Shown here: one piece after another, positions 2,572 to 52,858 of the stretch
Position numbering within the stretch: the first letter of the stretch is position 1
Layout of the letters: the number at the start of each line of letters is the position of its first letter
Source: Chloroflexota bacterium
Lineage (GTDB): Bacteria; Chloroflexota; Dormibacteria; Dormibacterales; Dormibacteraceae
Reading direction: 5' to 3'
DNA: 64,000 nt
Assembly (NCBI GenBank): GCA_005883575.1
Contig: VBFH01000023.1
Span: 124,001-188,000, forward strand
The notes under the pieces: generated by a model
Told to the model about the DNA's origin: nothing
The model's database searches: none
What the model saw: the letters and a program-made list of their open reading frames with translations, nothing else
Position numbers and translations under genes: made by a program

Positions 2572-3363
2572 ATGATCTCGGCCTACGACATCAGCAAGAT
2601 CGTGCTCGAGCAATCGATGCGTGCCAAAGTCGGCCACATCGGGTCGTCGCTGTCGATTGCGGGCATCCTTGCGGCCCTATTCGGCGGCGTCCTCGAGGGC
2701 AAGGGCCCTGACGACCCCGATCGCGACCGTTTCGTTCTGTCCAAGGGGCACGCCGCGCTGGCGCTCTATGCAGCGCTTCACCTGCGCGGGTGGATCTCGG
2801 CCGAAGCGATGAACACCTACTGCGCGGACGGCAGCATGCTTGGAGTACATCCCGACTCCGAGCTTGCAGGGGTGGACTTTTCAACCGGGTCGCTCGGCCA
2901 CGGCCTCCCGCTCGCGGTCGGAGCAGCCCTGGCTGCCCGCATGCAGAGATCGGACCGCCGGTGCTTCGTCCTGGTCAGCGACGCGGAATGCAACGAAGGC
3001 TCGCTGTGGGAGGCGGTGATGCTGGCCGCGCATCAGCACCTCTCGAACCTGGTCGCGATCGTGGACATGAACGGGCAGCAGGCGCTCGGGTATACCAAGG
3101 ACGTCCTTTCGCTGGAGCCGCTGCCCGCCAAGTGGCAGGCCTTTGGTTGGGACGTGCTCGAGGTCGACGGGCACGATGTCGCTGGACTGATCCGCGCAAT
3201 CGAATCGCTCAAGACGCGCGCCCACGCCCCCCATGTGCTGATCGCGCGCACCGAGTTCGGTCACGGGGTGTCCTACATGCGCAGCCAGATCAAGTGGCAC
3301 TACCTGCCCATGTCGGAGGCCGACTACGAGGACGCGCTTAAAGACATCGAGACGCTCCGGTGA
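2572..3363 (+). CDS. Transketolase, N-terminal (TPP-binding) subunit
   Basis: 263 residues corresponding to the first half of a transketolase. Seen: VGHIGSS near residue 22, SKGHAALALYAAL near 57, GSLGHGLPLAVG near 105 and the TPP diphosphate/Mg site SDAECNEGSLWEA near 138, equivalent to GDGE-type motifs. The remaining half is encoded by the next gene, which overlaps by four bases (GTGA), so the two subunits are translationally coupled. Split transketolases occur in many bacteria and archaea. Its place in a glycan operon rather than a pentose-phosphate operon suggests ketol transfer to make an unusual sugar precursor, which is inference. ATG 2572 gives a family-like N-terminus; longer upstream frames overlap the GT87 gene. 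Confidence 0.88.
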   Translation: MISAYDISKIVLEQSMRAKVGHIGSSLSIAGILAALFGGVLEGKGPDDPDRDRFVLSKGHAALALYAALHLRGWISAEAMNTYCADGSMLGVHPDSELAGVDFSTGSLGHGLPLAVGAALAARMQRSDRRCFVLVSDAECNEGSLWEAVMLAAHQHLSNLVAIVDMNGQQALGYTKDVLSLEPLPAKWQAFGWDVLEVDGHDVAGLIRAIESLKTRAHAPHVLIARTEFGHGVSYMRSQIKWHYLPMSEADYEDALKDIETLR

Positions 3364-4289
3364 GAGGTGCTTTCGTCCGGGGCCTCGTCGACATCGCGCG
3401 TGAGGACGAACGCGTCGTGCTCCTGACGGCGGACCTCGGATTCATGGCCCTCGAGCCGTTCGCGGAGGCATATCCAGAACGATTTCTGAACGTCGGAGTC
3501 GCCGAACAGGACATGGTTGGAGTGGCCTGCGGCCTCGCCGAGGCCGGCTTTCTGCCGTTCTGCTACTCGATCGCGACATTCGCGTCGATGCGGGGCTATG
3601 AGTTCATCCGCAGCGCGGCTGTCCTCCACCGCCTACCAATCCGGGTGGTCGGCGTGGGCGGAGGCTTCGAGTACGGACCGGCCGGGGCAAGCCATCACGG
3701 TCTCGAGGACATCGGCCTGATGCGCCTGCAGCCACAGATATGCCTCATCGCCCCTGCCGACTATTCCCAAACTCTGTCGGCGGTGAAAGCGACGTGGGAC
3801 CTGCCGGGACCCGTCTACTACAGGATCGGCAAGGACGACCGTCGCAAGGTGCCCGGACTGGACGGCCACTTCGAGCTCGGGAAGCCCGACGTGCTCGGCG
3901 ATGGCGCGGATCTACTCCTCCTGTCCACCGGCGCCGTGTCAGTCGAGGCTGCCGGCGCTGTCCAGAAGCTCGCGGCCAAAGGCGTGCGCACCACCCTTGC
4001 AATCGTCTCGACGCTCAACCCATCACCCGGCGCCGACCTGCTCGCGCTCTTGGGCGACTTCCCGGTCGCGATCACTGTCGAGGCACACCGGGTGAGCGGT
4101 GGGCTCGGCTCCCTCGTCTGCGAGGTGATCGCCGAAAACCGTCTCCGGTGCCAGGCCGTTCGGGTGGGCGTCAGTGGACCTCCGACTGCGGTGACCGGCA
4201 GCGAGGCATATCTACTCCGGCGCCACGGACTCGACCGAGACTCCCTCACCACGACCGCGCTCAACGTGCTCGCGGGAACGTACGCGTGA
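3360..4289 (+). CDS. Transketolase, C-terminal (pyrimidine-binding) subunit
   Basis: 309 residues matching the pyrimidine-binding and C-terminal domains of transketolase. The conserved VGVAEQDMVGVACGLA stretch near residue 47 contains the glutamate that activates the TPP aminopyrimidine. A (G/S)HHGLEDIGLMR segment near 112 and a transketolase C-domain follow. The GTG start overlaps the stop of the N-subunit gene. Together the pair should form an alpha2beta2 TPP enzyme in the cytoplasm. Its own stop overlaps the start of the glycosyltransferase downstream, tying it to the glycan operon. Confidence 0.88.
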   Translation: MRGAFVRGLVDIAREDERVVLLTADLGFMALEPFAEAYPERFLNVGVAEQDMVGVACGLAEAGFLPFCYSIATFASMRGYEFIRSAAVLHRLPIRVVGVGGGFEYGPAGASHHGLEDIGLMRLQPQICLIAPADYSQTLSAVKATWDLPGPVYYRIGKDDRRKVPGLDGHFELGKPDVLGDGADLLLLSTGAVSVEAAGAVQKLAAKGVRTTLAIVSTLNPSPGADLLALLGDFPVAITVEAHRVSGGLGSLVCEVIAENRLRCQAVRVGVSGPPTAVTGSEAYLLRRHGLDRDSLTTTALNVLAGTYA

Positions 4290-4999
4290 GCTCGAGCCCG
4301 CCCCTGATTTCGATCGTCCTGCCCGTCCACAACCAGGCGGACCACATCGAGCGTCTGGTCCGCGACTATGTCAGCGAGCTCCAGAAGGTGCCCGCGCCAT
4401 ATGAGCTTTTGCTGGTGGAGAACGCATCGCGCGACGAGTCGCTTGCGGTCTGCCGCCGCCTCGAGACCGAGCTGCCCTGTGTAAGGGTGGTCAGCAGCGA
4501 GAAAGGAGGATGGGGTCGCGCGGTGCGGCTCGGCCTCGCCAGCGTCGAGGGCGATGTCATCTGCTACACGAACTCTGCCCGCACCTCTCCCGAGGACCTG
4601 GTGATCTGCCTCCTCTACGCGGTCGCCTACGGGGGGATCGTCGTCAAGGCAAATCGCAAGATCCGCGAGAACTGGCGGCGCAGGCTGGGCTCGCTTCTCT
4701 TCAACATCGAATGCCGGACGCTCTTCGACCTCTCGAACTGGGATGTCAACGGCACACCCAAGGTTTTTCCGCGCAGCTTCGACAAGCTGCTCCAACTGCA
4801 GCGGGTGGACGATCTCATCGACACCGAGTTCTGCGTCCTCTGCAGGAAGCATGACTACCCGATGATCGAGGTGCCCATCTTCTCGACGCGCCGCCACGGC
4901 GGTAGATCTACGACCGGATATGGGTCCGCGCTTCGACTGTACTGGGGGGCGGCGGCGCTGTGGAGGAAGGGTGATTGGCTCGCTCGCCAGTCCGCGTGA
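4286..4999 (+). CDS. Family 2 glycosyltransferase (GT-A fold)
   Basis: 237 residues beginning with the GT2 signature ISIVLPVHNQADHI and a LLVENASRDES nucleotide-binding strand near residue 47. At the place where most GT2 enzymes carry the metal-binding DXD/DAD motif this protein reads YTNSARTSPED (about residues 92-102), so metal use may differ. No C-terminal membrane helices are evident; it should act in the cytoplasm on a lipid-linked or nucleotide-activated acceptor. The GTG start overlaps the transketolase stop (GTGA) and its stop overlaps the next gene in the same way. Exact specificity is unknown. Confidence 0.8.
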   Translation: MSSSPPLISIVLPVHNQADHIERLVRDYVSELQKVPAPYELLLVENASRDESLAVCRRLETELPCVRVVSSEKGGWGRAVRLGLASVEGDVICYTNSARTSPEDLVICLLYAVAYGGIVVKANRKIRENWRRRLGSLLFNIECRTLFDLSNWDVNGTPKVFPRSFDKLLQLQRVDDLIDTEFCVLCRKHDYPMIEVPIFSTRRHGGRSTTGYGSALRLYWGAAALWRKGDWLARQSA

Positions 5000-6171
5000 C
5001 CCCGGCGTGGTCGAGCCACGACGCCGCATGGCGCGACCCGGCGCAGGTCATCAGCCAGTGGAGCGACGCGGGGCGAGCTGAGCCCGGCCTGCTCAGCTTC
5101 GCGGCCAAAGGTCGGTGGTGGGATGTCCTGGCCGAGCACGGGATCACGCTGCTCGTGACGCGTGAATACGAGCACCTGGTGCTGGCCGTCTCTCCCGAGC
5201 CGCGAACCCAGACGTACCTGCGGCTCCCCCACCCATCTGGCCTGGCCGTCGATCGCGAGCGGGGCATCGTTCATCTGGCCAGCACCCGCAACCCAAACCA
5301 GATTTTTCAGCTCGCGCCGGTTCGCGGGCTGATCGACCGCACCGACGTGAGCCTCGACGGCGAGCCATCCCTCGAACGCGATCGTCCGCTCCTCCCTGTT
5401 CGTTCGGTGATCGTGCCCGGCAGCTTCTACATCCACGACCTCGCCCTGGTCGGCTCGCGGCTCTACGCGAACGCCGTCGGCCAGAACTGTGTCGTGCGCA
5501 TCGGCGAGGACGGCCGCGTAGAGAGGGTGTGGTGGCCTCGCTGCATCGAAACCCCCGACGGGCCGGTCTTCACCCGCAATCACATCCAGCTCAACTCGAT
5601 CGCGGCCGGCGCGAGCCTGCGTACGAGCTTCTTCACCGCCTCGACGGACCAGATCTCGAATCGGCGCCCGTCCCACCGCAACTTTCCGGTCGATAAGCGC
5701 GGCGTCGTGTTTTCCGGCGCCACGCGAGAGGTGATCGCACGCGGCCTGACCCGTCCCCACTCGGCGCGGCTGCACGCCGGCGCCCTTTGGCTGGACAACA
5801 GCGGCTACGGCGAGGTTGGTGTCGTCGCGAGGGGAAAGTTCGAGCCGCATGTCAGGCTGCCCGGCTGGACGCGCGGCCTGTGCTTCCACCACGGGGTCGC
5901 CTTCGCCGGCACCTCGCGCGTGATACCCCGCTTCCAGCAGTTCGCGCCCGGGCTGGATCCGGATGGGTCGGTCTGCGGCGTGCATGCCATCGACGTGGCG
6001 AGCGGGAGGGTGCTCGGCAGCCTGATCTGGCCCGCCGGCAACCAGATTTTCGCGATCGATTGGATGCCGTCGTCCTTTTCCCACGGCCTTCCGTTCCGTG
6101 GAGGGCGTCGACCCTCTGAGCGGGAGCGGCTACTCTTCTATGCCTTTGACCGCGACGGGACGATGGGATGA
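4996..6171 (+). CDS. TIGR03032/DUF4915 family protein
   Basis: About 391 residues. The pattern of WW-D-LAEHGITLLVTREYEHL near the N-terminus, the PHPSGLAVD and STRNPNQIF repeats and a LPGWTRGLCF segment near residue 290 match the TIGR03032 (DUF4915) family, predicted to be a soluble beta-propeller. The family has no settled biochemical role but often sits with sulfotransferases and glycosyltransferases, as here. I prefer GTG 4996, which gives the same GTGA coupling seen throughout this operon, over TTG 4975. The stop overlaps the ATG of the sulfotransferase. Confidence 0.75.
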   Translation: MTPAWSSHDAAWRDPAQVISQWSDAGRAEPGLLSFAAKGRWWDVLAEHGITLLVTREYEHLVLAVSPEPRTQTYLRLPHPSGLAVDRERGIVHLASTRNPNQIFQLAPVRGLIDRTDVSLDGEPSLERDRPLLPVRSVIVPGSFYIHDLALVGSRLYANAVGQNCVVRIGEDGRVERVWWPRCIETPDGPVFTRNHIQLNSIAAGASLRTSFFTASTDQISNRRPSHRNFPVDKRGVVFSGATREVIARGLTRPHSARLHAGALWLDNSGYGEVGVVARGKFEPHVRLPGWTRGLCFHHGVAFAGTSRVIPRFQQFAPGLDPDGSVCGVHAIDVASGRVLGSLIWPAGNQIFAIDWMPSSFSHGLPFRGGRRPSERERLLFYAFDRDGTMG

Positions 6172-7091
6172 GCGCTGACTTCAAGTTCTTGATGATCTCG
6201 GCGATGTACGAGAACGGTGGCAACACCACGCAGCGCCTGCTCGACGGCCATCCCCAGCTGCTCGTGTATCCCTTTGAATCGCAGCTCGGCACGCGGCTCG
6301 TGGTCGATGGGTTGTCATCGGTTTTCCCGGTCAAGTACCGGTGGCCGGTCTTTGCCCTCGACGCCGGGCCCAAGGACGACTATCAGGCGATCATCGACGA
6401 GGAGGCAAAGGTCCGCTCCCGGACTCCTGACGTGAGCAAGTTCCGCCACGTCGAGTTTGTGATGTCGGACGATGAGCGGCGCGACATCTACGTGAAGATG
6501 GTCGAAGAGGCTGGGCGATCGCGCGCCAACAATGTGGCTGCTTTCTTCCAGGCGACCTTCGAAGCGTGGAAGAACTTTCAACGCACATCCGAACAATCGA
6601 TCTACGTCGGCTACAGCCCGATCATCGCCGTCGATGCCGCGCGCATCCTCGATGAGCTTGCTGGGGCGCATGTGCTGAGCGTGATGCGCAATCCGTGGTC
6701 GGCCTACGCGGAGACGAAGCGCCGGCCCGTGCCACTTTCCTTGCCGCACTACATGCTTGGCTGGACCCTGCACCAGCAGTACAGCCTTCGCCTCGCGAAG
6801 GCATATCCGACGAGGTTCCACATCCTCCGGTTCGAAGACCTCGTGGTCGCACCCCGGAAGGTGCTGCGGGAGATGGGCCGGCAGATTGGCTACGACGACT
6901 CGGAGTATCTGGCGGCGCCGTCCTGGAATGGAATCCCCCTGAACGAGGTGTATCCATGGGGAACCATCCGCAAAGCCACGCCGGAAGCGAATCGCGAGAC
7001 TGCACTCACGCTTTCCGACGAGGAGCGTGCGCAGGTCGGAGCCTACGCGGCCCTCTATCTCGACGCGCTGGACTACAGGCACTTTCTCTAG
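6168..7091 (+). CDS. PAPS-dependent sulfotransferase family protein
   Basis: 307 residues. A GGNTTQRLLDGHP loop at residues 17-29 occupies the 5'-phosphosulfate binding position, and VMRNPWSAYAETKR near residue 172 is the 3'-phosphate binding motif; LRFEDLV near 220 is also typical. Predicted to transfer sulfate from PAPS to a carbohydrate or other hydroxyl acceptor. It is coupled by an ATGA overlap to the TIGR03032 gene and followed immediately by an epimerase gene, supporting synthesis of a sulfated glycan. No PAPS synthesis genes are in the window, and the acceptor is unknown. Confidence 0.8.
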   Translation: MSADFKFLMISAMYENGGNTTQRLLDGHPQLLVYPFESQLGTRLVVDGLSSVFPVKYRWPVFALDAGPKDDYQAIIDEEAKVRSRTPDVSKFRHVEFVMSDDERRDIYVKMVEEAGRSRANNVAAFFQATFEAWKNFQRTSEQSIYVGYSPIIAVDAARILDELAGAHVLSVMRNPWSAYAETKRRPVPLSLPHYMLGWTLHQQYSLRLAKAYPTRFHILRFEDLVVAPRKVLREMGRQIGYDDSEYLAAPSWNGIPLNEVYPWGTIRKATPEANRETALTLSDEERAQVGAYAALYLDALDYRHFL

Positions 7092-8057
7092 TTGCCGAAA
7101 CGGGTACTGGTCACCGGCGCGAGCGGTTTCGTCGGGGCCAACCTTGCGAGACGGCTGGTCGCGGAGGGACATGACGTCCACCTCGTCCTGCGGCCGAGCC
7201 GTGAATCCTGGCGGCTCGCCGGCGTCCAGGCATCAGTTCATCTCGCCGACCTCGGCGACGCAGACAGCGTCCGGGCAGCCGTGCGCACGGTCCGGCCCGA
7301 ATGGGTCTTCCATCTGGCGGCGCATGGCGCTTACTCGAGCCAGACGAACTTCGAACAGATGGTCCGAACGAACGTAACCGGCACCATCAACCTCGTGGAG
7401 GCCTGTCTCGATACCGGATTTGAGTCCTTCGTGAACACCGGATCTTCGTCGGAATACGGGTTTCAGGATCGGGCTCCGTCCGAAACCGACCCGATCAGAC
7501 CGAACAGCCACTACGCGCTCACCAAGGCCGCCGCGACGCTTTATTGCGGGTTCGCCGCCATCAAGCATGGTGTGCGAATCCCCACGCTCCGGCTCTATTC
7601 GGTCTACGGGCCCTGGGAAGAGCCCTCGCGCCTCATCCCGAGGCTCATCGTTTGCGGTCTACGCAACCGACTGCCTCTGCTTGTCGACCCGAATGTGGCG
7701 AGAGACTTCGTCTACGTCGAGGACGTCTGCGACGCGTACATCGCGGTCGCCGGCGACACCGCCGGCGATCCTGATTCGATCTTCAACGTCGGCACTGGCC
7801 GTCAGGTCACCCTCGAGGAGATCGTGAGCATGACGCGCCGTCTGCTGGCGATCGATGCGGAGCCTCATTGGGGCACGATGCCGAACCGAACCTGGGACAC
7901 CACCACCTGGGTCGCCGACAGCGCCAAGCTCCAGCGCCTGCTCGGATGGAAGCCACGCCACTCCATCGAGGCAGGGATGGCGGCGATGATCGATTGGTTC
8001 CGGGCTCTCCCGGCGGTGCGCGCTTACTACGAGGAGCGGGGGACGAGAAGCTCGTAA
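7092..8057 (+). CDS. NAD-dependent epimerase/dehydratase (extended SDR)
   Basis: 321 residues. The Rossmann motif TGASGFVGANLAR is at residues 8-20, SSSEYG near 118-123 and the catalytic YALTK (YxxxK) at 141-145. This is the pattern of GDP-mannose 4,6-dehydratase or nucleotide-sugar 4-reductase/epimerase enzymes. The TTG start abuts the stop of the sulfotransferase gene, so it is the last gene of the glycan operon. The 3' end overlaps the convergent gene by 31 bases. Likely makes a nucleotide sugar for the adjacent glycosyltransferases; the exact sugar is not predictable. Confidence 0.85.
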   Translation: MPKRVLVTGASGFVGANLARRLVAEGHDVHLVLRPSRESWRLAGVQASVHLADLGDADSVRAAVRTVRPEWVFHLAAHGAYSSQTNFEQMVRTNVTGTINLVEACLDTGFESFVNTGSSSEYGFQDRAPSETDPIRPNSHYALTKAAATLYCGFAAIKHGVRIPTLRLYSVYGPWEEPSRLIPRLIVCGLRNRLPLLVDPNVARDFVYVEDVCDAYIAVAGDTAGDPDSIFNVGTGRQVTLEEIVSMTRRLLAIDAEPHWGTMPNRTWDTTTWVADSAKLQRLLGWKPRHSIEAGMAAMIDWFRALPAVRAYYEERGTRSS

Positions 8058-46035: not shown

Positions 46036-46177
46036 AGAGGTCACTCATTCTTCCGCGCCGCCCAGCAAGCCCGCCATCGGGCGGGCCCGCCAGGGGGAGG
46101 GTCGAGGAAGAACAGGTTTCGCTGGCGACGACCCCGGTCCGGCGGCGTCGCATTGCGTACGGGTCTGGGGGGAAACT

Positions 46178-46408
46178 ATTGACGAAATTACAGAGTGCCC
46201 TGCCTGCGGCCGACGGCTACCGCGCGGAAAAGGAGTAGGTCGCCCGCGCCGCTACTGCTCTGGCCGCTGCAGATCTTGGGCCTGGTTGCATCGGGGTGAG
46301 GCCCGAGTACCCCAAGCAATGCGACGCCGCGGGCCACCTCCGTGGTCTCCATTTTTGGTCACTGACACAGATCGCAACTACACGGCTAATTTGCGGGCCG
46401 GCAGCTAG
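46178..46408 (+). pseudogene. Small zinc-finger frame without a normal start
   Basis: An open frame reading TECPACGRRLPRGKG then RPRRYCSGRCRSW, i.e. CxxC...CxxxC, followed by a basic tail. This mini-motif occurs in many actinobacterial mobile-element proteins. No ATG, GTG or TTG lies in frame nearby; the frame is open upstream for 70 codons without a start. Probably a remnant. Confidence 0.4.
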
Positions 46409-46656
46409 GACTGTTTCTTGTTGGCCTCGTCAAGCGCCTTCTTAAACTCTTGTACGGCCCGGCGCGACGCTTCCCTGAGCGCCGGCCCCTGTTCCGCCGC
46501 CAGCTTGCGAGCCGCGGCACTCACTTCCTTCGAGACCGCCTTGGCGTGTTCTTGAATCGCCGGCAGAGACTGGCGGACGATCTCCTGGGCTGCCTCGCTC
46601 AGTTTACGACTCGCCTCACGCGCGGCCTTCCTGACTTCTTCGGCATCCTTGCTCAT
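46405..46656 (-). CDS. Ala/Lys/Glu-rich helical protein
   Basis: 83 residues forming one amphipathic helix: repeated EAARKL/SEAAQE-type heptads from residue 5 to 75, with no cysteine or aromatic residue. It looks like a stress-related or apolipophorin-like coiled coil rather than an enzyme. AGGAGGA precedes the ATG at a normal distance. No family assigned. Confidence 0.6.
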   Translation of the reverse strand: MSKDAEEVRKAAREASRKLSEAAQEIVRQSLPAIQEHAKAVSKEVSAAARKLAAEQGPALREASRRAVQEFKKALDEANKKQS

Positions 46657-46687
46657 GCCAACTCCTCCTATAGACGTTAGGTCCTAC

Positions 46688-46816
46688 CTACAGCTTTGAG
46701 ATGTCGATTTTGAAACCCTGCTTGACCATCTCCTTGGCGAGGACAACCTTGATGTCGTTCACGGCGTCGGTGAACGGCAGGTAGATCAACCCCTGTATGT
46801 CTGAGGGCCTCTCCAT
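46688..46816 (-). pseudogene. Possible C-terminal fragment of a TIR-like nucleotide-binding protein
   Basis: A 42-residue frame: MERPSDIQGLIYLPF, then VNDIKVVLAKEMVKQGFKI. The (L/R)PSDIxGxxYxPF plus LAKEL/M..GF ending resembles the last part of TIR-like (PF10137, CAP12-type) effectors. Everything N-terminal is missing. Similarity judged by eye only. Confidence 0.35.
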
Positions 46817-46981
46817 GTTCTGGACGTTCCGGTCGCGGCATCCAGAAACGTTCGGTAACGAACTAGCCAGTTCTTCACCTGGTGCCTACTGCTTCTGACT
46901 GCAACTCGCAAGATCTTCTACGTCGTTCTCACGCCCGGCAGTCCGTGACGGCAGGACTCCGAGGCTGCCGCGGATAAGCGG

Positions 46982-47368
46982 CTACCTTCGGCTGCAGCGG
47001 TTACTAGTTGTGCCGAGCGCCTTCCCCATGACAGCCTCCCCGCCGCGTTCAAGGGCCTTCCAGACTGCAACGAACGGACCCAGCACAAACAAGACGCCAG
47101 TCATCCACAGGCCGAATGTCTTGATGAACGGTGTGCCGAACGACTGGACGTAATTGGTCCCGCTCGGAGTGGTCGACGGTGCCCTGCTGAGTAACGCGGG
47201 CGCGACCCACTCGCTGAACGCGTATACCGCCGCCAGCAACCAGACCGTGAGGATGACGACAAGCATCAGGTGCCAGAGCGGAACAGTTCTTTGCGCGCAC
47301 GCGGCCGTCGATGAGTGCCTCGGTATGACAAGGTCCGATAAGCCTAGACCAAGGATTGTCCTCTCCAT
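46982..47368 (-). CDS. Two-helix membrane protein
   Basis: 128 residues from ATG 47368. Helices at about 30-52 (WHLMLVVILTVWLLAAVYAF) and 85-105 (FGLWMTGVLFVLGPFVAVW) with a Ser/Pro-rich outer loop. A longer frame up to 47527 is low in protein character. Unknown function. Confidence 0.45.
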   Translation of the reverse strand: MERTILGLGLSDLVIPRHSSTAACAQRTVPLWHLMLVVILTVWLLAAVYAFSEWVAPALLSRAPSTTPSGTNYVQSFGTPFIKTFGLWMTGVLFVLGPFVAVWKALERGGEAVMGKALGTTSNRCSRR

Positions 47369-47459
47369 GAGAGGACACACGCCCAGGTCGGGTCGCAGCA
47401 TGCCTATTGGCCTTATTGGCCCGGCAAGGCACGCTGAGCCCTGAGGCTGGAAGACGCCG

Positions 47460-47717
47460 GTGCAAGGGTCCAACCTAGAGCTAGACGGCAAGTGTCCCTG
47501 CGGACGCTGGCTTGCCGCCGCTCCCATTTACTCCTACCGGTCACGGACCGTCCGATACCAGTTCCACCGCTGTGACTGCGGAAACGAGTGGACGGAGCAC
47601 GAGACTGACATCGACCCAACGGAACCAGTCAGCTCTGACGAAGTGATCGAGGTGCACAACCGCCTGGCCAAGCTCGAGGGTTCTATCTCCGAGCTCCTCC
47701 ACCACCACTCTGCCTAG
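47460..47717 (+). CDS. Small zinc-ribbon protein
   Basis: 85 residues: KCPCGRW near 11 and RCDCGNEW near 38 form a two-knuckle zinc ribbon; the C-terminal half is a charged helix ending in HHHS. GTG start. No family recognised; small ribbon proteins of this kind are common in mobile DNA. Confidence 0.5.
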   Translation: MQGSNLELDGKCPCGRWLAAAPIYSYRSRTVRYQFHRCDCGNEWTEHETDIDPTEPVSSDEVIEVHNRLAKLEGSISELLHHHSA

Positions 47718-48264
47718 CGGGCGATCGGGGCCCGTGGACTTGGTCCTTCGACTTTGGCAGCCTCGGATCGGTTGGTCAATTTCAAGTTCAGGTGATTTAG
47801 ATCTCGCAAGCCCGTGGCAGTACCGTGAATTGGCCCCCGGCCTGCGACGGTTTGAGGGCCGGTTCTGGCCGGACCGTACACGCATCACGTAGCGAGATAT
47901 GGGCACTTATCCCATGGACCTGTACTGAGGTAGCTGTTATACCGGCAACTAGTAGCCTACTCACCCATTGTTTAGAGCCGCCTTGTGGGCTGAGGAGGGG
48001 TCTTCTGCGACCGACAGGATGCGGCCGTGCGGCGCAGCACATAGCTTGCTCGCCGGCACGCGGGCCGCCTTATGGATTGAAGATGAGCGGACGTTCCGTG
48101 CGAATCGGGACGCCTGAGTGGCGGTGGCGCACCCCCGGCCGGCTGGTTTGAGAACTCGACCTCGAGATGCGCCGTTGCAATTCTGCGCGGTCGCGCCCGC
48201 TCTTCGACCTCCCTAACCAGTCAACTGCCCGCCTCGCAGGTGGGATCACAAGGAGGAAAGGCGA
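47718..48264. other. Gene-free stretch in the island
   Basis: 547 bases with no frame that I can support. Short frames exist on both strands but none carry motifs. The last 30 bases hold the strong AAGGAGG ribosome site of the next gene. Confidence 0.5.
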
Positions 48265-48813
48265 TTGAAGCGGTTATTGATTGGGTTGGTAGCTGGCTGC
48301 ATGGCAGCCACGATGCCGGTAGCTGCCCTGGCCGATAGCCCGCACTTCAAAAAGGGCGGCTTGCCGACCTGCACGATATCCGGTACAAACCCCTCGCTAT
48401 CGGTCACATGCACGGGTGTGCTTGCCGGGCTCGGCGGCGATAATCTCGAGATCGATGTAACCCTAAGTGGCTCCGCCGTCTATCAATGTCAGAACGGCGG
48501 CGGTAACACCGCTCCTGGCCAGAACAGGGTATTGGTCGGTCCAGCCACCACGCCGACGATGATTTCCGGCTCGGCGATCAAGAACGGCAACCTGACGTTC
48601 ACAACGAATCCCGCTACGTTGACCGCCCCGGCGATGGTGTCGGGCAGTGCGGCCGGCTGTCCGAACTCCAACTGGAAAGGCGTGAATCCGGTCCTCACCC
48701 TGACAAGCATCGTTCTAGACATCTACCAACCGCCGCCCCCGCCCTCGACCAATCGGATCTTCCACTGCACTGCGTCTGACCCCTTGAGCGGTACTGTTGC
48801 GCTGATCTGCTAA
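48265..48813 (+). CDS. Secreted protein of unknown function
   Basis: 182 residues with a signal peptide (KRLLIGLVAGCMAATMPVAALA, cut near residue 24), then a Ser/Thr/Gly-rich beta-like mature region containing six cysteines in pairs and a PPPPPS stretch near 153. TTG 48265 is preceded by AAGGAGG at ideal distance, the strongest ribosome site in this region. A perfect hairpin follows. No family recognised; probably an extracellular or wall protein. Confidence 0.6.
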   Translation: MKRLLIGLVAGCMAATMPVAALADSPHFKKGGLPTCTISGTNPSLSVTCTGVLAGLGGDNLEIDVTLSGSAVYQCQNGGGNTAPGQNRVLVGPATTPTMISGSAIKNGNLTFTTNPATLTAPAMVSGSAAGCPNSNWKGVNPVLTLTSIVLDIYQPPPPPSTNRIFHCTASDPLSGTVALIC

Positions 48814-48821
48814 CGCCAACT

Positions 48822-48849
48822 GAACAGGGGCGCCGTTGCGCCCCTGTTC
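48822..48849 (+). terminator. Perfect 11-bp hairpin
   Basis: GAACAGGGGCG and CGCCCCTGTTC with a six-base loop, eight bases after the stop of the secreted protein gene. No T-run follows, but position and strength support transcription end. Confidence 0.6.
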
Positions 48850-48985
48850 CTCTCGAGACAGCGGTTTAAGCCGACAGTGGATCTTGCCGACGGCGCAGGG
48901 GAAATGTTGAGTTTCGGACCACCAGAGCCGACGGTGCAGTACTCTTTGACCGACCCCAAAATTCGTCGGGGCTTTCAGCGCAGTT

Positions 48986-49300
48986 ATGGAGGCACTCGGC
49001 CCCAAAGATAGCCTCGAGGGCAAGCTCAACTACGAAGGCAATATGCGGGTCGAAGGCCGCCTCGACGGCGAAGTGCACGTGACTGGAGACATTGAGATCG
49101 CCCAAGGGGCGACGGTCACGGCCTCACTTGAGGCTGCGGGCGTTGCAGTGGAGGGCAACATCCAAGGAACCGTTACCGCACGCAGCAAGCTGACCCTGAG
49201 CGGCTCCGGAAAGCTCATCGGAGACGTTCATGTCGCCAGACTCCAAGTAAGCGATGGAGCCAGCCTCAATGGCAACGTTCGCATGGGAGGCTTTGAATAG
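48986..49300 (+). CDS. Bactofilin
   Basis: 104 residues of the bactofilin (DUF583) beta-helix: LEGKLNYEGNMRVEGRLDGEV, then VTGDIEIAQGATVTASLEA, VEGNIQGTVTAR and GDVHVARLQV with the usual G-x-hydrophobic ladder. Bactofilins polymerise without nucleotide and scaffold envelope processes. This one is short, close to a bare core domain with almost no tails. Presence in a genomic island is unusual. Confidence 0.8.
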   Translation: MEALGPKDSLEGKLNYEGNMRVEGRLDGEVHVTGDIEIAQGATVTASLEAAGVAVEGNIQGTVTARSKLTLSGSGKLIGDVHVARLQVSDGASLNGNVRMGGFE

Positions 49301-50050
49301 ACGGCGCACCGCAACGAAGGTGCTGGCTCTCGGCGCGGTTTATCCCGTTTCGGCCGAGCACACGCGCTCGGAATCGGGGCATGGAAGCAGGTCGGACGCC
49401 CCCACCCTGATCCGTGTCGGTAAACCGATCTGAATCGCTGAACGCGGCCCCGACGTCCGACCAAGGTGATAATCGGACTTCGGATGTCAGGTGGTCGAGG
49501 CAGTTTTGAATCGGCGGCTCGACCATGGGCTCTGCCCGCTGCTGTGGCGGCAAGTACAACGGTCGGGGGTCATCGACTGGAGCTGGGCATCTCGAGCAAG
49601 CCCGCGAGCCAAACCGCCGTCCCGCAACGGGAGGCAGCCGCTGGAGGAGTCCGAGGTCGTCCTAGGTATGTGAGGGCCGAGGCCCTGGCGCTCGAGCTAG
49701 CTCGCGGGCGCTGCTGTCATGAGGCGGGGCTGCTCGCCAGCGTGGGGTCGTGGGGCGCGGGGAGGCCTGGCGGCGGTCCTTCTGCGAGCGATGGTGGGGT
49801 CCACTTCCTAGCCTGACAGCCCTGTCCCGGGTTTGCGCCTCTCCTGCACGCTCCCTTCCCTGCGCCACCATCGTGTTCTCCCGGCAATCTACCCCACAGA
49901 CTAGCGACGGCCGGAACGTTTCTACGCCCACCAGATCGGTGGAAAAGCCTCCCAGGCCGGGAAATCCTCATCCGCTTTCGGGCTAAGGGCGGCGTCGTGA
50001 GCCTGGGAGAAGGTGGTAGTGGACTAGGTCGAGTGTCCGCTCCCGCACCA
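49301..50050. other. Gene-free stretch in the island
   Basis: 750 bases without a supportable gene. Contains the first copy of a 42-base repeat (49971-50012). Probably decayed DNA. Confidence 0.5.
49971..50012 (+). repeat. 42-base imperfect direct repeat, copy 1
   Basis: Matches 51026-51067 at 36 of 42 positions by direct comparison, sharing TCCGCTTTCGGGCT at the start and CTGGGAGAAG at the end. Confidence 0.6.
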
Positions 50051-50257
50051 TCAAGTGACTGCGACGAACACGAAGATCAGTGCGATGGCCAAGCAGCCAT
50101 AGCCAACACAACTGTTCAGCGCGCCGGCCATCCCGAGTCTTTCGCGCATTCCACGCTTCGTGGCGGGAGGTGCTTGCTGGATGGGCACCCAGCGCTGGCC
50201 GTCCCAATTGAACTTTCCGTCAGGCGAGACTTGGGGCGGCGGTGGCGTAGCGTTCAC
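50051..50257 (-). CDS. Small membrane protein with PDGxxxWDGQxWVP module
   Basis: 68 residues. SPDGKFNWDGQRWVPI near 11 is a short tryptophan module common in actinobacterial membrane proteins (DUF2510-like), followed by one helix (CLAIALIFVFVAV). GTG 50257 is six bases after TAGGCT. Probably an intact small membrane protein. Confidence 0.6.
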   Translation of the reverse strand: MNATPPPPQVSPDGKFNWDGQRWVPIQQAPPATKRGMRERLGMAGALNSCVGYGCLAIALIFVFVAVT

Positions 50258-50263
50258 GGCGGC

Positions 50264-50269
50264 AGCCTA
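50264..50269 (-). promoter_or_regulatory. -10 element TAGGCT
   Basis: TAGGCT on the minus strand six bases before GTG 50257. Confidence 0.4.
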
Positions 50270-50354
50270 CCAGCGTCGCATGCGAATGGCCGGACCTGCG
50301 ACCAGACCAGATTCCGGCCAAATGGCCGGGGCCAGCCCTCGAACAGACGGGGGC

Positions 50355-50360
50355 TAGAAT
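50355..50360 (+). promoter_or_regulatory. -10 element TAGAAT
   Basis: TAGAAT six bases before GTG 50367. Confidence 0.45.
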
Positions 50361-50366
50361 CCGCCG

Positions 50367-50588
50367 GTGGCGGCTGGAGGGCGAAATTACCGCGCACTGA
50401 TCAAACGTAGCGGCGGCTCCCCGCTGCACCTGATCCGCGACGACGCCGAGGCATCGCTCTGCGGCATCCCGCGCGCCTCGCTGTCCGGTGGTGGCATTTT
50501 CGACGAGGTCGTCTGTCCCGAGTGCATCGAGTGGCTGCCGAAGCGCATTGAGTTCTCGGACGAGCATCCGAAGGTCGAGAGAGACTAA
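50367..50588 (+). CDS. Small protein with CxxC knuckle
   Basis: 73 residues. HLIRDDAEASLCGIP near 21-35 and VVCPECIEWLPKRIEF near 48 give a likely zinc site of His/Cys plus CxxC. This type recurs as short accessory proteins in Actinobacteria. GTG start supported by the upstream hexamer. Function unknown. Confidence 0.55.
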   Translation: MAAGGRNYRALIKRSGGSPLHLIRDDAEASLCGIPRASLSGGGIFDEVVCPECIEWLPKRIEFSDEHPKVERD

Positions 50589-50597
50589 CCGAGCGGC

Positions 50598-50903
50598 TCA
50601 TTCAAGCGTGATAGGCGAACCCGGTTCGACATCGAGGTCACAGTCTCGCAACGCGTGCTTCACCATCTTGGTCACCCAGATAAGTGGCATGTCCGCAGGC
50701 ACATCAAGCTCAAAACGGCGAATGTCCGTGAACTCAAAGCCGTATTTTCTAAGGTGCTCGACGTTGCGACGAGCATTCGGCTTGGGCGGGGCAACAGCTT
50801 CCGTCCAGGTGCAACTCGCGAACCCCATATCCTCCAATGTCTCGGCTACGCGCTCAAATTGGTCACCGGGAAGATCGGGCACCGGCACGACGACTTTCTT
50901 CAC
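50598..50903 (-). CDS. Hypothetical protein
   Basis: 101 residues, soluble, alpha/beta: VVVPVPDLPGDQFERVAETLEDMGF at the start, then FTDIRRFELDVPADMPLIWVTKMVKHALRD. No recognised family. GTG start. Convergent with the preceding gene (9 bases apart). Codon pattern looks protein-coding. Confidence 0.5.
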   Translation of the reverse strand: MKKVVVPVPDLPGDQFERVAETLEDMGFASCTWTEAVAPPKPNARRNVEHLRKYGFEFTDIRRFELDVPADMPLIWVTKMVKHALRDCDLDVEPGSPITLE

Positions 50904-51025
50904 AGCCTAATTTTCCAGATCGTCCGGTCATGTTGTTGACGCCTCGAAGCAGCGAAGCGCGTGTCGGGATTTTCTGAGCCGCAGGATCGATCAGGCCGCC
51001 TTCAAGGTCGGGAAGTCGATCCGGG

Positions 51026-51067
51026 TCCGCTTTCGGGCTTCAGGCGCCGTGGTGAGGCTGGGAGAAG
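51026..51067 (+). repeat. 42-base imperfect direct repeat, copy 2
   Basis: Second copy of the element at 49971-50012; about 1.05 kb apart in the same orientation. Confidence 0.6.
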
Positions 51068-51076
51068 CTGACAGGG

Positions 51077-51596
51077 TTAACCGCTTGCTTGGTTGTCATA
51101 CGTGAGGTACTGGCCCCGCTGTTGCGCGGCTTTGGCTGAGAGCCGCAGCGGAAATGTCAATAGCGATCGCCAGACCGGATGACGCCACCTCCACCAGCCG
51201 CTCAAGACGTACCCAACGATTACCGGAATGTCTGTCGGCCCTGTGACCTTCACGTCGGGCAATGAACTCGCAACATACGAGCCGCGTTTCCCGGCCTTGA
51301 ATCACGATCGAAGTGGCCATCTTTCTGCTCTCGTTCTCAGGCTTGACGCCTTCATGGGTGGCCATGAAAGGGACCACCGAGGGAAATCCGGCAGCGTTAA
51401 GGCGGAGTCGAAGGTTTACAGCAACCGCCGCGCCAGGCCTCGCATTGGCGAAAACTAGCGGCAGGTTGAGGATCAACCCGTCCGTTGCTGCAAACGAGTA
51501 GCTCCTGGGCTCACCGACGATCTGGAGCTTGCCCCATCGGGCGTTCAGCCACCAGAACGAGCCGATCGTGAACACGAGTACCGCTACGGCTACCAC
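51077..51596 (-). pseudogene. Frameshifted membrane-anchored protein
   Basis: An N-terminal helix (VAVAVLVFTIGSFWWLNARW) and a beta-rich domain (LNLPLVFANARPGAAVAVNLRLRL) run to LVCCEFIAR near residue 110; the sensible continuation (PDVKVTGPTDIPVIVGYV, then GWWRWRHP) is in a different frame from 51262 and ends at 51077. One frameshift therefore separates the parts. No family recognised; it overlaps the next gene upstream by seven bases. Confidence 0.5.
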
Positions 51597-52277
51597 GAGC
51601 GCATAGGTCGCGATTGTGTCGGAGCAAGCGATGCCGCTCCCTTCAACTCGTTCGCTGTTTGCTGAATGTCTTCAAGCACCTCGGCAAGAATCGAGTTGCC
51701 GGTTACTGAAAAGCGCCTTACCACATGAGCCGACGTAGCCACGATGACCAGCGAGCACTCGCGATCGCCAGTACCGAGCCCCGCATCAAAGGGACTCTCC
51801 AACTCTGCACAGAACCAAAGGCCCGACCGAGCGGGTACCACGACCGGCAGCCGATTCTTCAGCGACGGTACTCGTGCGTCGGGAGTCACGTCAACAAACT
51901 GTTTGAAGGTGGCCGCGTCGGGGGTGTCGCCTCCTCCTATGAGGACCATCACGTTGCGTATCGCATCAAGTCGATCCGTATCGTTCAGGAGAGCAAATTC
52001 GATGTCCACTCGCGTCCCGACGAAGTCGTATGCCTTCACGACCCCGATCCGAAGCGGAAGCACAACCTCCAATCTTGGGCTGTCTGCCCCTGGGGTAGCG
52101 CGCGCATCGCCGGGCAGGTCTGGCGTCGGTAACGCTTTGGCTTCGGTGGCTTGTGGCAGAGAGCTTGCCTGTACTTCGACCGTGATGTTTGTGGTCGCGT
52201 GGAAGGAGCTTGATGGCCACCTGCATTTTCTCGGCCACCATTGCTTTGATGAGCGCGGCGTCGACTAGGGCACTCAT
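51590..52277 (-). pseudogene. Hypothetical protein, probably frameshifted near its 5' end
   Basis: The main frame (51590-52072) encodes 160 residues of a beta-rich domain with VPARSGLWFCAELESPFDAG. Upstream in that frame is FHATTNITVEVQASSLP with no start, while ATG 52277 begins MSALVDAALIKAMVAEKM in another frame. Joining them gives one protein of about 225 residues. The domain resembles that of the adjacent gene, so the pair may be related. No family assigned. Confidence 0.45.
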
Positions 52278-52422
52278 CGAATCGGAGCTTAGCTGCTAAG
52301 CCTCACGCAGACCGTCTTAACCCGCACTTAGCGCGCAACGGTTAGCCGCCATCACGCGGCGCAATCGCACACTGAAGCGCCGTCCCCGAATACGAGTCGT
52401 CTACCACGGCTGAGGCGCATCA
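52278..52422. other. Island right end, gene-free
   Basis: 145 bases between the last island frame and the right attachment repeat. No gene or motif that I can support. Confidence 0.4.
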
Positions 52423-52467
52423 CTGCGGAGCAAGAGGCAGCAAGTTCGATTCTTGCCAGGCGCACCA
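52423..52467 (+). repeat. attR: 45-bp copy of the tRNA-Arg 3' half
   Basis: Exact copy of 42711-42755 (anticodon loop to CCA). No 5' half precedes it, so it cannot fold as a tRNA and marks the right end of the island. Confidence 0.9.
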
Positions 52468-52630
52468 CCGTGCACTCGGCCACGGTCGGAATGAAGACAT
52501 TGGCCGCTCCGGGCGTTCCGCAAGCTGCCTGGCGGAGAGGTAGTCCAGGCCCCCAACCTGTTTCTGAGATAGATGGGTGGCGCGCGGCCGCGCCTATCCC
52601 AAATTCAAAGAAGGGGGTGGCCACAACAAT

Positions 52631-52801
52631 ATGTTGGTCGCACTCATTGTGTTGGTTCTGCTTCTGCTGATCTTAGGTGGAGGCGGATTCCTGAGCGCGT
52701 CGCTAAACATTCTGTGGTGGATCCTGATCATCGGTCTCGTTCTTTGGGTGCTCGGATTCTTCTTCCGGAGCGCAGAGGGCGGCCGCTGGTACCGCTGGTA
52801 G
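52631..52801 (+). CDS. Small hydrophobic membrane protein
   Basis: 56 residues, two helices: LVALIVLVLLLLILGGGGFL and LWWILIIGLVLWVLGFFF, then a hydrophilic SAEGGRWYRW tail. GAAGGGGGTGG precedes ATG 52631. Similar tiny hydrophobic proteins (Lmo0937-like) are common and of unknown role. First gene outside the island. Confidence 0.6.
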   Translation: MLVALIVLVLLLLILGGGGFLSASLNILWWILIIGLVLWVLGFFFRSAEGGRWYRW

Positions 52802-52858
52802 CACGCGCCTCGCCAGGCAGCGAGTGCTTGCGGTAGGGCAGGCACTCGCTTCGTTTTT

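Follow-up and report, generated by a model that had tools for sequence, protein, structure and literature searches.

We report that six adjacent genes in a 64,000-nucleotide stretch of the genome of a Chloroflexota bacterium of the family Dormibacteraceae (assembly GCA_005883575.1, contig VBFH01000023.1, positions 124,001 to 188,000, forward strand; the window) encode the two halves of a split transketolase (TK-N and TK-C), a GT2-fold protein, a beta-propeller related to DUF4915 and TIGR03032, a sulfotransferase-fold protein (ST), and an extended short-chain dehydrogenase/reductase (SDR). Our best explanation, which we hold with about even confidence, is that the six genes make up a self-contained biosynthetic cassette that has spread horizontally and supplies a specialised sugar, either two-carbon-branched or two-carbon-extended, for a surface glycan. 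The analysis shows that the genes are coupled, conserved in order, and co-inherited, that the set is rare and mixes phyla in its tree, that the host has a second transketolase, and that motifs for donor or substrate binding are replaced in TK-C, in the GT2-fold protein, and in ST.

The six genes are linked, conserved in order, and co-inherited

A first-pass annotation of the window had described six genes joined by 4-base overlaps or zero spacing and had read them as one operon. The junctions in the window are as it described, with overlaps of 4 bases at four junctions and zero spacing at the last, between ST and SDR (Table 1), and every cassette domain passes its Pfam cut-off except Sulfotransfer_3 (25.4 bits vs. 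a cut-off of 27). Across cassette loci, stop-to-start spacing is zero or less at 59 of 84 junctions (start codons for this count were guessed by script, and some large overlaps probably reflect wrong starts), the median being −4 bases for each of the five gene pairs except ST-SDR, where it is 3 bases.

Table 1. Genes of the six-gene cassette, with positions in the window.
Product	Coordinates	Strand	Evidence
TK-N, thiamine-diphosphate-binding half of split transketolase	2572..3363	+	Pfam Transketolase_N 139 bits
TK-C, pyrimidine-binding plus C-terminal half of split transketolase	3360..4289	+	GTG start within TK-N; Pfam Transket_pyr 89.9 and Transketolase_C 46.4 bits
GT2-fold protein, 237 amino acids	4286..4999	+	Pfam Glycos_transf_2 47.7 bits; N-x-A-R-T in place of DXD
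DUF4915/TIGR03032-like six-bladed beta-propeller	4996..6171	+	Pfam DUF4915 174.7 bits; AlphaFold model
Sulfotransferase-fold protein (ST), rewritten PAPS loops	6168..7091	+	AlphaFold model; Sulfotransfer_3 25.4 bits, sub-threshold
Extended SDR, NDP-sugar epimerase/ketoreductase type	7092..8057	+	TTG start right after ST stop; Pfam Epimerase 170.7 bits
PAPS, 3'-phosphoadenosine 5'-phosphosulfate; NDP, nucleoside diphosphate.

A search of 84,980 species genomes with the propeller returned 14 loci, with titles that name Chloroflexi, Deltaproteobacteria, Planctomycetes (Isosphaeraceae, Singulisphaera), Victivallaceae, Obscuribacterales, Geobacteraceae, Acidobacteria, and Actinomycetota. Genome searches added six more cassette genomes (G060, G160, G563, G788, G768, and G1078), and these, the 14 loci, and the window make up the set of 21 genomes to which the counts below refer; one cassette remnant (L025) was left out of family counts. 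The genes for the GT2-fold protein, the propeller, and ST (the trio) are contiguous and on the same strand in 21 of 21 genomes, the GT2 gene of L009 being cut by a contig end, and the view that the TIGR03032/DUF4915 protein is a core part of the set is supported. TK-N and TK-C lie upstream of the trio in 17 of 21 genomes, with the SDR gene in between in two (L010 and L018). In the remaining four genomes, a cassette-like TK-N lies on a separate contig (L087 for L009, L084 for L011, L086 for L013, and L085 for L014); the separation is explained by contig breaks in L011 and L014, and probably in L009, while 7.5 kb upstream of the L013 GT2 gene contain no transketolase, so that the transketolase is truly apart there. 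The SDR is present in 18 of 21 genomes, on the trio's contig in 16 (following ST in 10, upstream and divergent in 3, upstream and co-directional in 1, and between TK-C and GT2 in 2) and beside the detached transketolase in 2; it was not seen within the stretch examined in L013 and L038, and L017 is cut inside ST.

Across the 14 loci in which the full set of six proteins is available (L009, L017, and L024 were left out), distance correlations are positive for all 15 protein pairs (r 0.45-0.94, permutation p ≤ 0.028). We conclude, from the recurrence of the gene order in other phyla and the tight junction spacing, that the clustering of the six genes is beyond chance; the recurrence of the cassette in other genomes also rules out contamination or a chance cluster. 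The reading of the genes as one linked operon is upheld by co-inheritance, by conserved order, and by the distance correlations, and the comparison of gene order in other genomes that the first-pass annotation had called for finds the order conserved across cassette genomes.

Two side observations concern the integrity of the set. In L010, L018, L084, and L085, the transketolase and SDR have diverged (30-45% identity to the window's) and occur in the order TK-N, TK-C, SDR, while the trio in the corresponding genomes (L010, L018, L011, and L014) remains 43-62% identical; it seems that the transketolase/SDR part evolves, or is swapped, separately from the trio. In L025 (G055:C59, 9561-10509), TK-N residues 4-155 are fused directly to propeller residues 56-233 and the other cassette parts are absent from the stretch; this apparent cassette remnant would be a deletion relic or a misassembly.

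The cassette is rare and probably spreads horizontally

The ST family was detected in 5 of the 400 genomes searched from the window's phylum and, for three other phyla, in 2 of 294, 3 of 297, and 2 of 247 genomes, each count including the centre genome; the propeller is found in 3 of 61 relatives of the window's genome and in 0 of 16 other genomes of the same genus. In a tree of ST and propeller, phyla are intermixed, with node support that is uneven and in places low. Flanking genes vary from locus to locus, and the membrane protein downstream of the cassette in the window is not like that at the same place in the nearest relative, L008, which rules out orthologous flanks in this pair. Rarity, phylum mixing in the tree, and differing flanks together indicate that the cassette probably spreads horizontally. 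Two other identities were considered and rejected: a phage or plasmid origin, since searches found no ST relative in viral contigs or plasmids and no GT2 relative in phages, and a defence system, since none of the six proteins has a PADLOC match.

The split transketolase keeps its catalytic Glu and loses housekeeping substrate-site residues

Of the 21 cassette TK-N rows, 20 contain the thiamine-diphosphate motif and the other is a fragment; the catalytic Glu is retained in 19 of 19 cassette TK-C rows (L088, a non-cassette transketolase, was left out of residue counts). We compared TK-C with the host's other transketolase at the positions of S345, H416, D424, and R474 of the human enzyme, which belong to its sugar-phosphate site. 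All 19 TK-C rows have F or Y in place of the housekeeping Ser, G in place of the His, and A, M, N, or Q in place of the Asp; the position of R474 is K in 13 rows, R in 3, and another residue in 3 (n = 19), and an Arg at the start of the TK-C domain is kept in all 16 rows that have a letter there. From these patterns we infer that the cassette transketolase uses a different acceptor and is not a dead enzyme.

The host encodes another transketolase (643 amino acids, contig C86) in which all four canonical residues (S, H, D, and R) are present, and the cassette pair is therefore not the housekeeping enzyme; the 14 other cassette genomes that were examined each have further Transketolase_N matches as well. 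The first-pass annotation had named, as the finding that would count against it, a sole transketolase pair serving central metabolism in an unconserved gene order. That objection fails on both halves, given the second transketolase in the host and the conserved order, and the statement that the gene set is not a standard pathway stands.

Donor-site motifs are replaced in the GT2-fold and sulfotransferase-fold proteins

The GT2-fold protein exceeds the Glycos_transf_2 cut-off of 23.3 bits and has a profile match to ArnC across residues 5-212 (E 3.5e-13). It shares this match with ArnC-type GT2 enzymes but differs from them at the DXD motif: the DSD/DAD of ArnC and other solved GT2 proteins aligns with N-x-A in the cassette, and all 20 rows long enough to cover the site carry N-x-A-R-T, one row being cut short. 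The label of glycosyltransferase thus holds as a family match, whereas ordinary nucleotide-sugar transfer is not to be assumed in view of the loss of DXD.

The same pattern, common fold and replaced motif, is seen for ST. The AlphaFold model of ST (mean predicted local distance difference test score, pLDDT, 86.2) has a sulfotransferase fold, matching 4gox (Z 18.7, root-mean-square deviation (rmsd) 3.9, 247 aligned residues) and human tyrosylprotein sulfotransferase (TPST) 1 (Z 18.2, rmsd 3.1, 224 aligned). Its homologues in other cassette genomes exceed the Sulfotransfer_3 cut-off and the window's own ST falls short of it, so that the label of sulfotransferase rests on the fold and on the homologues and not on the score of the window's protein. 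Relative to Sulfotransfer_3 proteins and tyrosylprotein sulfotransferases, which have the fold in common with ST (Z ~18), both PAPS-binding loops are replaced. The 5'-phosphosulfate-binding (5'-PSB) loop, [PS][RK]SG[TS], occurs in 0 of 21 ST rows; PRSGTT of canonical sulfotransferases is YENGGN in the cassette, with MYENGGNT in 19 of 21 rows. The Ser of the 3'-PSB motif, eight residues after the Arg, occurs in 0 of 21 rows, the site being D or E in all 21. Controls for the loop alignment were sought at 11 loci with canonical sulfotransferase matches; the proteins used came from five of these loci and had been chosen by the motif pattern itself.

APS (adenosine 5'-phosphosulfate) kinase is the usual source of PAPS. 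An APS kinase match is present in 13 of 21 hosts (12 strong and one weak). None was detected in the other 8, two of which are the window's genome (95.5% complete) and G160 (94%), and assembly gaps could account for the absence; ATP sulfurylase PF01747 is present in 7 of 21 hosts, the CysDN type lying outside this search. Among relatives, an APS kinase match is present in 31 of 61 genomes, including 8 of 16 same-genus genomes, so that a gap in the window's assembly is possible, and absence of APS kinase as proof against use of PAPS is weakened.

These results bear on a conventional pathway, in which the GT2-fold protein uses a nucleotide sugar and ST uses PAPS, so that the resulting glycan carries sulfate and a ketose-derived sugar. 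Such a pathway would account for the sulfotransferase fold, with best matches to TPST and the olefin-synthase sulfotransferase, for the homologues over the Sulfotransfer_3 cut-off, for the strong APS kinase matches in 12 hosts, and for YP[FY]ESQ, the invariant Glu of which lies, in alignment, near the place of the known sulfotransferase catalytic Glu. It does not account for the absence of the 5'-PSB loop from every row, for D or E in place of the Ser expected at the 3'-phosphate, for hosts in which APS kinase was not found, including the window's genome and G160, or for a GT2 without DXD, and we regard it as fairly unlikely. The first-pass suggestion of a sulfated glycan is weakened; its word "sulfated" is made doubtful by the replaced PAPS motifs in 21 of 21 rows and by the 8 hosts without a detected APS kinase.

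Loss of donor motifs in both GT2 and ST, in a trio that is always together, could alternatively mean that neither protein is catalytic and that they join the propeller in a complex that binds or tailors a sugar or glycan produced by the transketolase and SDR. The propeller is a common binding fold, but the high conservation of ST (mean column identity 73% in the alignment) suggests selected chemistry, and we consider a non-catalytic complex improbable.

The propeller is a DUF4915 relative

The first-pass annotation had labelled the propeller TIGR03032. Its score against DUF4915 (PF16261; cut-off 35 bits) makes it a relative of that family, but its score against TIGR03032, 104 bits, is well under the NCBIfam cut-off of 251.5, and the protein is thus a DUF4915 relative outside the trusted range of the TIGR03032 model. 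The AlphaFold model (pLDDT 83.9; L008, which contains X letters, was left out of the alignment used for folding) is a six-bladed propeller of the YWTD/SMP-30 kind, matching nidogen (Z 24.4, rmsd 2.9, 242 aligned) and gluconolactonase (Z 21.6, rmsd 3.4, 258 aligned). A common fold by itself shows no function for the propeller; among solved structures there is no sequence relative of note, and our literature search found no paper naming TIGR03032 or DUF4915 and none using the phrase "split transketolase", although papers on "split-gene" transketolases exist.

Distant TIGR03032 proteins also occur on plasmids (L047-L058, H1-H12). In 10 of these 12 records, the exceptions being H8 and H7 (at a record end), they adjoin, or are one gene from, a gene for a large protein of repetitive or surface type (autotransporter, cadherin-like, FG-GAP, choice-of-anchor Q, VCBS, Ig-like, or IPTL-CTERM), and in H5 the TIGR03032-type gene overlaps a sulfotransferase gene. 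This suggests a role of the wider TIGR03032 family in surface-protein modification.

Neighbours of the cassette are often membrane glycan enzymes

In the window, two GT87 genes precede the cassette. They are tandem paralogues (42-2512), ~35% identical and overlapping each other; a third GT87-like gene lies farther upstream (L026, 4733-5986). Neighbours named by Pfam elsewhere are LPG_synthase_TM (L007, L015, and L037), PMT_2 (L015, L018, and L037), YfhO (L018), MurJ (L038), Polysacc_synt_3 and DUF2142 (L008), and a Glycos_transf_1 protein (L007). By these family assignments, cassette neighbours often appear to be membrane enzymes of lipid-linked glycans. The neighbours picked are non-random, mostly large membrane proteins, and therefore support the idea of a glycan role rather than test it. 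Neighbour genes were called with a scored gene caller, which misses some cassette genes; an earlier caller had given shadow open reading frames (ORFs) in high-GC loci. In line with the glycan role proposed in the first-pass annotation, several neighbourhoods carry surface-glycan enzymes.

Neighbourhoods also bear on whether the product is instead a diffusible small molecule, such as an unusual C7-C9 sugar or glycoside. The cassette is compact, rare, and mobile, like secondary-metabolite clusters, and the closest proposed ketone-acceptor transketolases (PMC12247030) sit in Streptomyces nucleoside antibiotic clusters. However, no other gene family recurs beside the cassette in more than a few loci, and the recurring Pfam-named neighbours are membrane glycan enzymes; we judge a diffusible product very unlikely.

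Elsewhere in the window, nearly 7 kb (46036-52858) contain no ORF of at least 200 amino acids, many short ORFs, slightly lower GC content, and no Rfam match.

A candidate pathway for a ketol-derived surface sugar

According to the explanation that we favour, a cassette for a specialised surface-glycan sugar, the split transketolase would move a two-carbon ketol unit onto a sugar other than the normal aldose phosphate. The acceptor would most likely be an NDP-sugar or a carrier-linked sugar that reacts through its keto or aldehyde group, and the product would be a sugar branched or extended by two carbons. The SDR would make or reduce the keto group; it carries the glycine-rich motif in 18 of 18 rows, a YxxxK-type motif in 16 of 18, and SSSEYG in 17 of 18, and by these class features is assigned as an extended SDR epimerase/ketoreductase. 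The GT2-fold protein, propeller, and ST, acting as one unit, would pass on or decorate the sugar, and adjacent membrane glycosyltransferases and flippase-like proteins would place it into a lipid-linked surface glycan.

A ketol-derived unusual sugar is a plausible product by analogy with other split transketolases. According to PMC12247030, the biosynthesis of miharamycin and amipurimycin is proposed to involve split transketolases that attach hydroxyacetyl groups to keto sugars, in vitro proof being lacking; compared by description, these enzymes resemble the cassette in being split enzymes within sugar-modifying gene sets and differ in coming from Streptomyces nucleoside antibiotic clusters. 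The Carboxydothermus split transketolase, which takes bulky aldehydes with hydroxypyruvate, has the same two-chain arrangement and a profile match to TK-C (E 1.2e-75), but keeps, in the printed alignment, the housekeeping His and Asp, both of which cassette TK-C lacks (PMC7661550). SqwGH sulfo-transketolase likewise has two subunits and acts on a non-standard sugar, but belongs to a catabolic sulfoquinovose pathway; the cassette has no recognised counterparts of the SqvD and SqwI isomerases or the SqwF reductase of that pathway (PMC11659671).

Several points weigh against the favoured explanation. Loss of housekeeping residues does not itself show a keto-sugar acceptor, and, the R474 equivalent being K or R in 16 of 19 rows, a charged substrate may still bind. 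The His is missing, too, from a non-cassette split transketolase encoded away from the cassette stretch in G422 (L088), and the residue losses may be shared by other split transketolases. Many of the 40 neighbour proteins scanned have no Pfam match, several membrane proteins among them, and some are unrelated (cation efflux, metallophosphatase, peptidase, and outer-membrane barrel); there is no obvious glycan neighbour at L013 (phosphoesterase, cation efflux) or L046 (M1 peptidase).

A more far-reaching reading, which we consider unlikely, is a new glycan decoration chemistry, in which the split transketolase would extend an activated keto sugar by two carbons and DXD-independent GT2-fold and PAPS-independent ST-fold enzymes would act with the DUF4915 propeller as common partner.

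The results place the uncharacterised DUF4915/TIGR03032 family within a constant group of biochemical partners. They indicate that the name "sulfotransferase" should not become "sulfated glycan" without a check of the donor site. They also provide a compact six-gene set with which acceptance of ketones by a split transketolase, unproven in vitro according to PMC12247030, may be tested.

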